Source: Dictyophora rubrovolvata (Eukaryota > Basidiomycota > Agaricomycetes > Phallales > Phallaceae). From it: 64,000 nt of DNA. Position numbers and translations under genes: made by a program. The stretch lies in contig CP114126.1 of assembly GCA_029959195.1 (NCBI GenBank), positions 868,001 through 932,000 on the forward strand, written 5' to 3'. Below, in pieces: positions 43,535 to 49,287 of this stretch (positions within the stretch are counted from its first letter, which is position 1; every line of letters starts with the position of its first letter). The notes below the pieces were generated by a model, which had not been told where the DNA came from, ran no database searches, and was given only the letters and a program-made list of their open reading frames with translations.

Positions 43535-46196
43535 TTAAGCTACTTTTTCTTCATCTTTACTATCATCCAAGGGTTTGCTGGCCTTGACGGGTAGACCAGC
43601 AAATTTCGACCGCAGGGCTTCGTATCTGCGCCGTTGAGCAGGACTAACACTAGGTCCAAGGTTGCTCAGTGCATCTTCAAATTCGGGTAGACCGATTGCA
43701 AGATCACCTCCATCCCCATTCATTTCTAATGTAGCTTGTGCACCTTCCAATAGCTTTTTCAAAGTACAAACAGCCGCCTCTCTAACGAGCGCTGCCAAAT
43801 CCGCACCGCTATACCCATCGCACTTCTCGCGAACCAACGTTTCAATAACAGACAAAGAGGTGTCCGGTATTGGCATTTTTCTTCGACAAATCATGGTTCG
43901 GACAATTTCGGCACGCTCGTTGGCGGAAGGAAGGTCAACGTATAAGAGCTTATCTAGTCGACCGGGTCGACACATGGCTGGGTCTATCATGTCTGGTCGG
44001 TTTGTGGCTGCTACGACATAGACTGCTTTTCTGGCATCTAGTCCGTCAAGCTCTGTCAAAAGAGTGTTGACTACACGAGCGGAAGATTCGGACTAAAAGA
44101 GTAAAGGACAAATGGGATTCAGGAATTTTACGGAAAACGTTTGGACTTACGAGACTGTCGTCTCGTCGTGGAACAAGAGCATCGAGCTCGTCAAAAAATA
44201 TAACACAAGGCGATGATGCACGTGCACGCGTAAAGACTTGGCGGACGGCTCTTTCGCTTTCACCGACGTACTATAGAGGTAGTCGTCAACGAAGTAGCTC
44301 TTTCACCTTGTTTTTTTTTTACACCACATACCTTATTTAACAACTCAGGTCCTTTTACAGATATGAAATTCGCTCTACTTTCATTGGCTACTGCCTTTGC
44401 CAAAAGCGTCTTGCCACATCCAGGAGGTCCCCACAGCAAAACACCACAAGGTGCCTCAACCCCTACTCTCTTGAACAACTCAGGATGACGAATGGGCTGG
44501 ACGATGGCCATTTGCAGTTCAGCACGCGTGGCATGTAATGCGCCGACATCAGCCCACGTGACGTTTGGTACTGTCGCGAATCCTTCTCGTGTTGATGATG
44601 GCTGGACTTCAGATAAGGCCGCTATGAAGTCTTCCGGGGTAATGTGGAGAGGCTCAAGTTGTTCTTGAGTTAAAGCGATAGGATGCGCACGTAAAAACGA
44701 CGCGATAGACGGATCGGGAATCGATGAGAAGGGTATGTGTGTTGTTGAGATTATGGACGGTGGATCCTCATTAGCTTTGGGAGGGACGGTTTGATCGATT
44801 TGCATAGTGATATCTGCATCAGTCGAAAAAGGATTTTGAGGAAGAACGAGCGTTCCATCCGATAATTGTTGGAATATTCGCTTGACAGCTATTACGCCCG
44901 CCGCACCAGTTAGTGCAGCCAAGTCAGCTCCGACATAGCCTGGGGTAGCCTTGGCAAGGGATTTGAAATCAAACTCTCCAGACAAACGAAGTTTAGCGCA
45001 CAGGACGTGTAATATTCTAGACATAGTAGTTAGTTACCGGAAAGTAAGGCAAGCCTAATCATTCTTACTGAGCACGCGCTTCGTCATCTGGGACACCCAT
45101 ACCAATTTCATGGTCGAACCTTCCCGCGCGACGTAAGGCAGCATCGAGAGAATCGGGTCTGTTTGTCGCCCCTATGACAATTACCGGTTTATTATCCGTT
45201 TTGTCCCAAGAAAGGTCTATTGGGAGAACATAAGCTTTCAGCCAAATGATGGCGCAGCAAGACATTGACATACCATCCATACAAGTTAAAAATTGGGCTA
45301 CAATTCGACGCTCCATTTCACGCTGAGCACTTTCTCGTTTGGGTGTAATAGCATCGATTTCGTCAATGAATAAAAGACATGGGGCGACTCTCTTTAAGGA
45401 TGAACTGAGACCATATGATATAGACAATGTATAGACCCGACGAAAGGCTTACCTTTGCCTCTTCGAATGTTTCACGGAGTGTTTTTTCGGATTCACCGGA
45501 CATCCCGGAGACTATTGAAGGAGCCGAAATGCTAATGAAGGGCAGCCCAAGTTCCTAAAGATACAGAGCATGTCGTTAAGAATTCTGATGCAAGCCCTAG
45601 ACTGTAAAACTCACGCACGCCAGCAATAGCATTGGCTAGTAACGTTTTACCACACCCAGGAGGCCCGTGCAATAAGACACCTCGTGGAGGTTGGACACCA
45701 GTATGAATGTACACCTCTGGATGACACAGCGGCATAGCGACTAGCTCAAGCATTTTTTCGACACAAGGTTGGATGCCTCCTAAGTCAGACAGTCGCGTCG
45801 GAGGCGGCGTGTAATCTTTAGCTATAGAGCTAGGTGTCGTCTTCGGCCGTTTGACTGTACGTTCAGAATCGGCACCATCCGCTGCACTTGTCCGTGACGA
45901 GCGAACTTTGCGTTTTGTTGGCGGGGGTGATTGTAAAGCTGAAGCCAATTCAGTTGACTTGACTTCGTCTGCGGGAGCGGTTGTGTCTACGTTGGCTGCC
46001 TCTGGTACAGCTGTCGTTTTTTGAGATTCTTCAGCGGGTACAACTAGGACTGGCGCATTCAAGTTGAGTTTCGTCCGTCTATGGTTGGTCCATAAATTTT
46101 GCATGCCTTTATTTAAGGCATTTCCTGACTATGAAAAGATAAGTTAGAATACGCATAGGAAGAAGAATCAGCAATGTATCCACCGAAATTTCCATC
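43535..46196 (-). CDS. RIX7: NVL/Rix7-type AAA ATPase of 60S ribosome assembly
   Basis: Two AAA modules. D1: [20 protein letters not shown], Walker [18 protein letters not shown], Walker [21 protein letters not shown], then [21 protein letters not shown]2: [20 protein letters not shown], Walker [21 protein letters not shown], Walker [40 protein letters not shown]. This is the type II AAA layout of Rix7/NVL, which strips assembly factors from nucleolar pre-60S particles. Both ATPase sites look intact. The N-terminus is the weak point: the smallest model begins MEIS at 46196 with a 12-base first coding exon, while the open frame extends upstream to about 46273 ([13 protein letters not shown]), so more 5' exons may exist near the decayed repeat. 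Confidence 0.9.
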
Positions 46197-46273
46197 GAGT
46201 CAGAAATTTGGCCAAGTTTCGCTGCTGTGTGACCGTCACTGTCACACCGAAAACATAAACTTCTCAAGATGAA

Positions 46274-46388
46274 ACTAGAAAGTGCTCATCCCTATTTCAC
46301 TTGCTTGAATTTCGGTTTCTCAACCCGTTAGAATAAAGGGAGAATAATTTAAATGTTAGAAAATCGAAGTTATAATAACGCTTCAGTC
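46274..46388 (-). repeat. Decayed partial third copy of the SUA5 3' end / U6-repeat flank
   Basis: Read on the minus strand, this segment resembles the outer part of the inverted-repeat arms at 46795-46895 and 47610-47708. Shared blocks include ACTGAA...TTA..ATAA, CGATTTTCTA, ATTATTC and ATAGGGATGAGC followed by ACTTTCTA. It starts with what looks like the last codons of SUA5 (Thr-Glu-x-Leu, then TAA). It does not reach the U6 sequence and is diverged, so it is an older duplication than the two arms. Its inner end coincides with the 5' part of the NVL/Rix7 gene. Confidence 0.6.
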
Positions 46389-46401
46389 GCATCTGTTATG
46401 C

Positions 46402-46474
46402 GGTCGCGTAGCGTAACTATACACAACATCTTAGTTTGTTGAATTGACCCCCGGTTCAACTCCGGGCGTGGCCA
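46402..46474 (+). tRNA. tRNA-like gene, unusual D region
   Basis: The 73-base segment has a seven-pair acceptor stem (GGTCGCG with CGTGGCC, two G-U pairs), discriminator A, and a perfect five-pair T stem around TTCAACT with a consensus B box GGTTCAACTCC. An anticodon-like stem CAACA/TGTTG is present. A five-T run at 46479 could serve as the RNA polymerase III terminator. However, the D region (GCGTAACTATAC) lacks the usual GG and the D arm is too short, while the variable region is about 8-10 bases. A CTT (Lys-like) anticodon is the best reading, with low certainty. It could be a tRNA pseudogene. Confidence 0.45.
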
Positions 46475-46794: not shown

Positions 46795-46939
46795 CCATAA
46801 TTTCGATTTCGATTTTCTACAATGAGATTATTCAAACTTTATTGAATTCTAGCCAGTGAAACTTGAATAGGGATGAGCCACTTTCTATGTTTGCCTTCCT
46901 CCACTTCCCTTTTTTGAATACCACACTCTGAGTCAAGTT

Positions 46940-46993
46940 GGCGCCCGGAAAAAGTCGACACGCCCACTCAAATGCATTTGCACAAATGGCGCC
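46940..46993. promoter_or_regulatory. Paired GGCGCC sites and CAAATGCATTTG palindrome upstream of U6
   Basis: Between 25 and 80 bases ahead of the left U6 gene are two GGCGCC sites (46940 and 46988) flanking the 12-base palindrome CAAATGCATTTG (about 46969-46980). No TATA box lies at the usual -30. The mirrored arrangement stands ahead of the right U6 gene. A role as the polymerase III upstream promoter is inferred from position only. Confidence 0.4.
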
Positions 46994-47017
46994 CCTTTGA
47001 TGTGACGATAACTGTAT

Positions 47018-47041
47018 GTCCTCTTCGGAGTGACACACGTA

Positions 47042-47073
<32 letters not shown>

Positions 47074-47134
47074 GGCCCCTGCACAAGGATGACACGCTAG
47101 TACAGAGTGGACGACCTTCGGGTCGCAATATTTA
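47018..47134 (+). ncRNA. U6 spliceosomal snRNA, copy 1
   Basis: The sequence contains the near-invariant U6 core: a 5' stem-loop (GTCCTC-TTCG-GAG-T-GAC), AAAATTGGAACGATACAGAG, AAGATTAGCATGGCCCCTGC and AAGGATGACACGC. The ACAGAGA box, the AGC triad and the internal stem-loop are intact, so this copy looks functional. The 3' tail carries an extra hairpin CGACC-TTCG-GGTCG at 47112-47125 before a run of eight T residues (47135-47142), the polymerase III terminator. U6 pairs with U4 and then U2 at the catalytic centre of the spliceosome. The exact 5' and 3' ends are estimated. Confidence 0.93.
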
Positions 47135-47137
47135 TTT

Positions 47138-47365
47138 TTTTTCGCTTTTCCAGTTATAGTTACTTACTGCAAATTCTCACTAAAAAATTACAGCTAATCG
47201 GTACAAATTTTTCAAGCATATCGATCGTCTCAATCTTGCAAACACAATATATTTACTCCAAAAATTTATGCAAGAACTTGAGACTTGAAAGCTGGTGCAT
47301 TGTTTAACTTTTAGGTTTTCCTTGTTGCGGTGGAAATTTTGCAATCTGTCTAGGAGCAAAAAAAT
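47138..47365. other. Spacer between the two U6 genes
   Basis: 228 bases of unique AT-rich sequence between the inverted arms. Both U6 genes terminate into it: eight T at its left edge, and seven A at 47358-47364, which are T on the right gene's strand. No coding or RNA gene recognised. Confidence 0.6.
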
Positions 47366-47429
47366 AAATAAATATTGCGACCCGAAGGTCGTCCACTCTG
47401 TACTAGCGTGTCATCCTTGTGCAGGGGCC

Positions 47430-47461
<32 letters not shown>

Positions 47462-47708
47462 TACGTGTGTCACTCCGAAGAGGACATACAGTTATCGTCA
47501 CATCAAAGGGGCGCCATTTGTGCAAATGCATTTGAGTGGGCGTGTCGACTTTTTCCGGGCGCCAACTTGACTCAGAGTGTGGTATTCAAAAAAGGGAAGT
47601 GGAGGAAGGCAAACATAGAAAGTGGCTCATCCCTATTCAAGTTTCACTGGCTAGAATTCAATAAAGTTTGAATAATCTCATTGTAGAAAATCGAAATCGA
47701 AATTATGG
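47366..47708 (-). repeat. Right arm of 343-base inverted repeat with U6 gene
   Basis: Mirror of 46795-47137. Its outer end runs six bases into the SUA5 coding region: the last sense codon and the TAA stop of SUA5 (47703-47708) belong to the repeat. This shows that the right side is the original location and the left arm the copied one, or that the arm was copied from this side by conversion. Confidence 0.88.
47369..47485 (-). ncRNA. U6 spliceosomal snRNA, copy 2
   Basis: Identical to copy 1 as far as I can see and on the opposite strand, so the two genes point toward each other. All conserved U6 elements (ACAGAGA, AGC triad, internal stem-loop) are present. The terminator is a T-rich run interrupted once more by A than in copy 1, then seven T. 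It lies downstream of, and on the same strand as, the SUA5 gene, whose stop is about 220 bases upstream of it. Confidence 0.93.
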
Positions 47709-49001
47709 TAATGTTTCAGTAGGATTGATCCAATGCACTTCACCAGCAGCTTTTTTAACTCTATTCATCACAGCAAGCCCCTCTCGAGTTTCTTCAATGC
47801 CCTCTACTATTATCAAGTTTGCTCCATTATGTTCTAGAGTCAGCAAGCCATCAAATAAACGTTGGGCGGTCACTGAAGGATCGCCAATTGTCCCAAGAGG
47901 GAAGTAGTCCCACTGAAGTTCTACTTCAGCATGCTTTTTCAAGTTAGAAGGGAATAAAGCGAAAGAGGAATCAGAAGGAGCGAGGAGACCTATTTTTACG
48001 GGTGCGGTTGGTGGATAAGAGGAAAGTATTATGGAAAATGTTTCGGAGATAGATAAGGCGGTTTGGTTCGCAGGAGGCGTCGAGGTTAGCAATAGGACGA
48101 CGGGGATTGAAGGGGAGTAGTGCTGATACTTCATTCCAGGCGTTGTTGGCGCGTTTTCTAGGTCCTCGTCATGATAATCACGTCGATGTACCAAAATGCG
48201 AGGTGGCGTTTGGCCTTCGACGGTTAAGACCCTTTCCATGTCTTCAACAGTAACACCACCTGGTCTCAAGATGCGTAGTGTTCCGTCTGAACCAAGTCCA
48301 TCAACAACTGTGCTCTCCACGCCGACGTCGCAAGAGCCACCGTCCAATATGACGCGAACTTTGCCTGACAAGTTACGAGATACGTGTTCTGCTTTAGTCG
48401 GACTGGGAGATCCCGAAGTGTTTGCACTGGGTGCTGCAAGGGGTACATTGCACATTGCAATCAGAGCTCGTGCTACTGGGTGTGACGGCATTCGGACGGC
48501 TACGGTCTCGCGACCTGCGGTAACAATCGATGGGATTTGCGGTGACGTTGGAAACAATAATGTAAGAGGACCGGGCCAGAATGCTTGCATCAATGAATTA
48601 TACGAGGAAGGAACAACAAATGTCGGGGGTAAAAGCGATCTGAGCATTTGTAGAGAGGATACATGGACGATCAGGGGGTTATCGGCTGGACGGCCCTTGG
48701 TGGCAAAAATCTGAGATACAGCAGAAGAATTCAAAGCTGATGCTGCCAATCCATACACAGTTTCGGTAGGGAGTACAACTGGTACATTTAGAGATACAAG
48801 GTCGTAGGCGGCGGTTTTTAAGGACGCGAGGGTTCCTTCATTAGAAACAACGGGTTGCGAATCCGAGGCTGAAAAACTAATCGATGAAGGATCGCAAAGG
48901 AAAACTTCCGTTGTAATCGTCGGTTGGTTCATGTTGAACGCATTTAAATAACGTCGGATGGGGCTGGGAGACCGAAAGAGCCTCGCGAGGAAAAATGACA
49001 T
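47703..49001 (-). CDS. SUA5: Threonylcarbamoyl-AMP synthase (Sua5/YrdC)
   Basis: Single exon, 432 residues. The YrdC domain shows VVLPTETVYGLAASALNSSA, FATKGRPADNPLIVHV (Lys-x-Arg substrate site), WPGPLTLLFPTSP, TVAVRMPSHPVARALIA, PLAAPSANTSGSPSPTKAEH, GVESTVVDGLGSDGTLRILR and PGG. A C-terminal Sua5 domain follows (PGMKYQHYSPSIPVVLL and on). It makes threonylcarbamoyl-AMP for the t6A37 modification of ANN-decoding tRNAs. The start at 49001 gives an Arg-rich, acid-free leader (FLARLFRSPSPIRRYLNAF) that looks like a mitochondrial presequence; an internal Met at 48932 (MNQPTITT) would give a cytosolic form. Confidence 0.93.
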   Translation of the reverse strand: MSFFLARLFRSPSPIRRYLNAFNMNQPTITTEVFLCDPSSISFSASDSQPVVSNEGTLASLKTAAYDLVSLNVPVVLPTETVYGLAASALNSSAVSQIFATKGRPADNPLIVHVSSLQMLRSLLPPTFVVPSSYNSLMQAFWPGPLTLLFPTSPQIPSIVTAGRETVAVRMPSHPVARALIAMCNVPLAAPSANTSGSPSPTKAEHVSRNLSGKVRVILDGGSCDVGVESTVVDGLGSDGTLRILRPGGVTVEDMERVLTVEGQTPPRILVHRRDYHDEDLENAPTTPGMKYQHYSPSIPVVLLLTSTPPANQTALSISETFSIILSSYPPTAPVKIGLLAPSDSSFALFPSNLKKHAEVELQWDYFPLGTIGDPSVTAQRLFDGLLTLEHNGANLIIVEGIEETREGLAVMNRVKKAAGEVHWINPTETLP

Positions 49002-49287
49002 ACATCATCTGGAGAAATTTTTGTCACGCTGTGACAAGATAAATCTCGCTATCGGATTGGAGTCATTCACTTTGACCGATGAGCCCGAATGTTTTCATGG
49101 CAGTCATCCTCAGACCTCACTTTGTTGGTCATGGCTGTCCTAAAGGCCCGATTTGTGAATGATGAATGACAATATCTTTGATGATATAGATACAATTAAT
49201 GATTTCGTGCCCGTCATAGCCATAGAAGAAAGTTTCAAGAAAGTCGGAGCATAAATAATAAAAGCAGCTGCGACTTAAACCGAGTTC

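Follow-up and report, generated by a model that had tools for sequence, protein, structure and literature searches.

Two convergent U6 snRNA genes in a perfect palindrome, probably an inverted duplication homogenised by gene conversion, with an upstream element also found before U5 genes

How two complete U6 snRNA genes come to lie in the arms of a perfect inverted repeat, whether both are likely to work, and what keeps the arms identical are the questions raised by this locus, which lies within a 64-kb window (the whole stretch of DNA that was analysed). Upon reverse-complement comparison, the two arms exhibited 0 mismatches over 343 nt and enclosed a spacer of 228 nt (Table 1); a repeat finder returned a length of 348 nt by extending the arms across a mismatch at their inner end. 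The palindrome was the sole inverted repeat listed in the window (14-nt seed, 30-nt minimum), and chance is therefore no explanation for it. An identical layout was found in the host assembly (28,239,528 bases in 11 contigs), at C10:914795-915142 and C10:915361-915708. Read from outside to inside, the right arm contains the last codon and stop of a SUA5 gene, 3′ flanking sequence, a promoter region and a U6 gene, and the left arm is the inverted copy of this arrangement. Homology between the outer flanks, beyond the arms, was without significance (32/300 controls). The central claim of a preliminary description, a perfect 343-base palindrome with a full U6 gene in each arm, was borne out, each gene matching RF00026 at 79.1 bits (gathering score, 44) and covering positions 1–105 of the 105 in the covariance model. 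Its title had called the genes “head-to-head,” a wording which is wrong and which its own text contradicted; since the U6 3′ ends face each other, the pair is convergent, i.e., tail-to-tail.

Table 1. Features of the U6 palindrome and adjoining sequence, in window coordinates
Feature	Position	Strand	Remark
Diverged third copy of the outer part of the arm (SUA5 tail), without U6	46272..46401	+	Direct orientation to right arm
Left arm, perfect inverted repeat	46795..47137	+	0 mismatches vs reverse complement of 47366-47708
Upstream element, PSE-like by position	46955..46977	+	Begins 63 nt before left U6
U6 snRNA gene, left copy	47018..47133	+	RF00026, 79.1 bits; 116/116 identical to other three full copies
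T8 tract, likely polymerase III terminator of left U6	47135..47142	+	Crosses edge of perfect arm
Spacer, possibly decayed palindrome continuation	47138..47365	.	Moderate evidence; depends on control and scoring
T7 tract, likely polymerase III terminator of right U6	47358..47364	-	Outside perfect arm
Right arm	47366..47708	-	Outer end is last sense codon of SUA5; inward, SUA5 stop codon 47705-47703 (from ORF)
U6 snRNA gene, right copy	47370..47485	-	RF00026, 79.1 bits; identical to left copy
Upstream element, PSE-like by position	47526..47548	-	Begins 63 nt before right U6
SUA5-type threonylcarbamoyl-AMP synthase ORF	47703..49004	-	Stop-to-stop ORF; PF01300 and PF03481; ends in right arm

Four full U6 copies were found in the genome, a count which is a lower bound: the two at the palindrome, one on contig C7 and one on contig C4. 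The RNA is identical at 116/116 nt across all four. U6 CAGAGTGG can pair with U2 CCACTCTG, near the U2 5′ end, over 8 bp in 6/6 U2 genes found, and two further 8-bp matches connect U6 with U4, namely GCACAAGG/TCTTGTGC with one G-U and GATTAGCA/TGCTGATT with two G-U, each present in 2/2 U4 genes found. We take the U2 match to be U2/U6 helix II and the two U4 stretches to be U4/U6 stems II and I. Other U6/U4 matches of 7–8 bp were also listed, so pairing length alone is weak evidence. In the left gene, U6 CAGAGTGG is located at 47103-47110, with the same placement in the other copies, and is followed by a hairpin-like CGACC-TTCG-GGTCG, most of which is an insertion in the Rfam alignment.

At their 3′ sides, the palindrome genes are followed by a T8 tract beginning 1 nt after the Rfam 3′ end of the left copy and a T7 tract beginning 5 nt after that of the right copy, and T9 and T10 tracts follow the two other full U6 genes. 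Within the U6 gene itself, no T run of ≥4 was present. The position of T8 and T7 directly after the genes makes the termination signals strong, and the weak termination which the preliminary description had put forward is unsupported. Both palindrome genes are complete and probably active, each with an external promoter region and its own T-tract terminator, and we infer that both are transcribed.

Multiple copies are the rule for the spliceosomal RNA genes found in this genome (U2, six; U4, two; U5, three; and U6, four). U1 and RNase P gave no match in the genome, and the same search was equally blank in control genomes, so that the blank is no evidence of their absence. Truncated U6 3′ ends were detected by BLAST on contig C11 and ∼2 kb downstream of the C7 U6 gene, neither with an Rfam match even at E up to 0.5; their flanks are related to the flanks of the C7 and C4 U6 genes. 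These truncated ends are probably fossils of further U6 copies, and their occurrence with related flanks indicates turnover in the U6 family, with copies both gained and lost. As for the earlier expectation of one or few U6 copies in fungi, four full copies were found here, and three each are reported for two mushrooms in the available portions of the respective papers (PMC9441760, PMC13117603). Multicopy U6 is thus common to this genome and the two mushrooms, Poria cocos and Stropharia rugosoannulata, and a palindrome goes unmentioned in those same portions (PMC9441760, PMC13117603).

The 64 nt upstream of U6 exhibited 0 differences between the arms, 3 in comparison with C7 and 4 in comparison with C4, with a range of 0 to 7 over all pairs. 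The 25-nt part of this region nearer the gene (≤3 mismatches) was found at four places, only before the four U6 genes, and at 0 in a reversed control. At the same tolerance, a 23-nt element lying farther from the gene was found at 17 places (reversed control, 0), comprising the four U6 genes, three U5 genes and 10 others. In 4/4 U6 and 2/3 U5 genes, the element starts 63 nt before the Rfam gene start, and in the third U5, 64 nt before it. In local alignments, the U6 upstream region scored 49–51 against those of the three U5 genes, a level reached by 0/200 shuffles each. In contrast, similarity to the U2 and U4 upstream regions was not significant, and the 23-nt element was absent from the six U2 and two U4 genes found; these (6/6 U2 and 2/2 U4) carry, as judged by eye, RGTCYGTGC together with a TATA box, while no TATA box was seen by eye before 4/4 U6 and 3/3 U5 genes. 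Two promoter classes are present in this genome, one comprising U5 and U6 and the other U2 and U4. B-box-like motifs were sought in the 400 bases after each full U6 gene, with none at the two palindrome copies and one distant match each at C7 and C4.

A similar grouping was observed at the 3′ ends of the genes. T runs of ≥7 (T7, T8, and T9) follow 3/3 U5 genes, starting no more than 19 nt past the Rfam 3′ end, as compared to a frequency of 0.0082 for such a run in a random 40-nt stretch (three fetched loci). None of the six U2 or two U4 genes has a T run of ≥7 within 40 nt, and two U2 genes have one at +44. Because U5 has a U6-type upstream element, no TATA box and T7–T9 after the gene, it may be made by polymerase III in this organism. 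The internal T4 and T5 runs of U5, which are also found in U2 and U4, count against this hypothesis, U6 having none of ≥4.

The 10 remaining element places all fall in copies of a single dispersed repeat; each of them matches the others around the element and carries it with 2–3 mismatches, and Rfam gave no match in these ten loci at the gathering threshold. The repeat unit is ∼1.5 kb, with three copies 98% alike, and at least 43 matches to the repeat body were found in the genome, a count obtained with a query downstream of the element and therefore not one of element-bearing copies. A broader interpretation, which we advance tentatively, is that the spliceosomal promoter classes cut across the textbook polymerase split. 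U5 and U6 would both be polymerase III genes with a common TATA-less element 63–64 nt upstream and T tracts of ≥7, U2 and U4 would have a TATA box and another motif without a close T tract, and a subfamily of the transposon-like dispersed repeat would have acquired, or would share, the U5/U6 element. The common promoter element of U5 and U6 is the more surprising by-product of the analysis; the palindrome is ordinary in kind.

In animals, the PSE is common to all spliceosomal RNA genes, and in vertebrates, polymerase III snRNA genes have a TATA box near −30. The present arrangement resembles the metazoan type of external snRNA promoter (PSE, SNAPc-dependent) in having one element at a fixed distance before U6 and U5, and the element is PSE-like by position. 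It differs from that type in that U2 and U4 are without the element and have another motif and a TATA box, whereas U6 and U5 are without TATA; by eye, no vertebrate-type TATA box near −30 was seen before U6, and TATA stands before U2 and U4 instead. Among mushrooms, the available text on P. cocos describes three putative U6 genes with the RNA conserved between copies and diverging upstream regions, a TATA box before each of them and no evident PSE (PMC9441760). In contrast, the four U6 copies here have ∼64 nt upstream in common, with no TATA box seen. For S. rugosoannulata, three U6 genes are described with a TATA box in one, and U6 promoters of Ganoderma lucidum and Flammulina filiformis are likewise given as without a TATA box, according to the available portion of that paper (PMC13117603). 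Transcription of all snRNAs by polymerase III is described for trypanosomatids in the part available of another report (PMC4950102). Among the titles and abstract openings returned by searches of open-licence literature, none named a U6 palindrome or a fungal U5 made by polymerase III.

We consider the palindrome, at a probability of roughly 57%, to be an inverted duplication of a segment comprising the SUA5 tail, promoter and U6, with the arms kept identical by gene conversion. Duplication of this segment in inverted orientation would have produced the two convergent U6 genes, at a date earlier than the perfect identity of the arms implies, and conversion between the inverted copies would since have held the arms identical. 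Conversion would end at flank mismatch, which on the outside is the last SUA5 codon and on the inside the terminator T tracts. Beyond the 64-nt promoter region, identity between the arms extends over the next 159 nt upstream. Matching to the arm begins at arm position 160 for the C7 locus and at position 143 for the C4 locus; since the outer 142 nt match neither dispersed full U6 locus, no U6 constraint is evident there. “Very recent duplication or continuing gene conversion,” as the preliminary description had it, is a fair pair of options, and we favour conversion on account of what looks like a decayed continuation of the homology just inside the arms. When compared with its own reverse complement, the spacer scored 31, a value attained by 1/1000 dinucleotide shuffles and 0/2000 clean low-GC genomic segments. 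When one spacer half was compared with the other under four scorings, 10, 14, 18, and 15 of 5000 shuffles did as well, as did 1/3000 clean genomic segments, and extension anchored at the arm edge reached 17 as compared to a maximum of 11.5 in 300 controls. Removal of the 12 nt beside each arm, in which the T tracts lie, raised the frequencies for the spacer halves to 98, 62, 114, and 176 of 5000 shuffles and to 10/3000 genomic segments. With local scoring, 25/1000 shuffles scored as high as the spacer, and with stricter local scoring, 679/1000, the signal being gone. A decayed continuation of the arms into the spacer seems indicated at moderate strength, dependent on control and scoring. The left terminator lies in part, and the right one entirely, past the perfect arms, and yet the two are alike, which fits an old duplication with homogenisation confined to the arms.

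A recent inverted duplication, for example by replication template switching, in which one arm was produced from the other and no conversion is needed, would also account for the zero differences in 343 nt; we regard this reading, the main rival, as possible, with the odds somewhat against it. Absence of differences in the 159 nt upstream of the promoter region sets a 95% upper bound on divergence of ∼1.9%, consistent with recency. The surroundings provide a further argument of this kind. The SUA5 tail is present in triplicate, in the order direct, inverted, direct, its third and diverged copy lying to the left of the palindrome; alignment of 46272-46401 with 47611-47736 gave 94/109 ungapped positions identical (147 columns with gaps), and 0/2000 dinucleotide shuffles scored as high under either of two scorings. 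Replication template switching can yield the order direct, inverted, direct, and the triplicate may be such a product. The stricter spacer test was not significant and the trimmed test was weak, which also favours a recent event. Set against this are the resemblance of the spacer to a decayed continuation of the palindrome and the left terminator, which crosses the arm edge and has a similar partner opposite, a coincidence for which a single recent insertion would need luck. Inverted repeats that are long and perfect carry a known risk of misassembly, and the same appearance would result from a spurious inverted copy or from polishing that had removed the differences between two near-identical arms. 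We judge such an artefact very unlikely, given a highly contiguous assembly of 11 contigs for 28.24 Mb and differences between the two copies in spacer ends, outer flanks and T tracts, which place the arms in distinct contexts. Still less probable is selection for the palindrome itself, whereby convergent read-through would generate an RNA that folds back on itself and acts in regulation or silencing. The geometry alone suggests it; the T8 and T7 tracts directly after the genes speak against it, as do the two dispersed full U6 copies, which have an equal promoter region and gene and no inverted partner reported nearby.

Other features were noted in the neighbouring sequence. To the left, a gene at 43535-46128 (-), split into three or more pieces with Pfam matches to AAA and AAA lid, encodes an AAA ATPase; it is presumably RIX7/NVL-like, Pfam indicating AAA only. 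A tRNA-like remnant at 46402-46473 (+) has acceptor- and T-arm-like ends and a reduced D region. It received no ARAGORN call, and that program listed no tRNA anywhere in the window, whether or not introns were allowed. The remnant is common only to C11:1370534-1370551 (-), a locus which also holds a truncated U6, and a 125-nt match between the palindrome region and C11 lies at a near-equal distance from the U6 tail (886–1009 as compared to 892–1005). The sole addition from a permissive Rfam search around the locus was WT1-AS_5, at a chance-level E of 0.53.

Inverted duplication homogenised by gene conversion would place this locus beside other inverted duplicate genes kept identical in this way, with which it has in common perfect arms, diverged flanks and a gene in each arm; here, the argument for conversion comes from one genome only. 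The likely effect would be a higher dosage of U6 genes, in a genome where every spliceosomal RNA gene detected is multicopy. The palindrome is real and correctly placed, and its best reading is a pair of working U6 genes produced by an inverted duplication of an ordinary kind and probably homogenised by gene conversion. As such, it offers a compact example from nature of an essential RNA gene in inverted duplicate, apparently kept identical. The U6 pair also serves as an anchor for recognising the upstream element common to U6 and U5, which would serve for guide RNA expression in this organism, and the question of a lineage change in the polymerase of U5 is directly testable in one culture.
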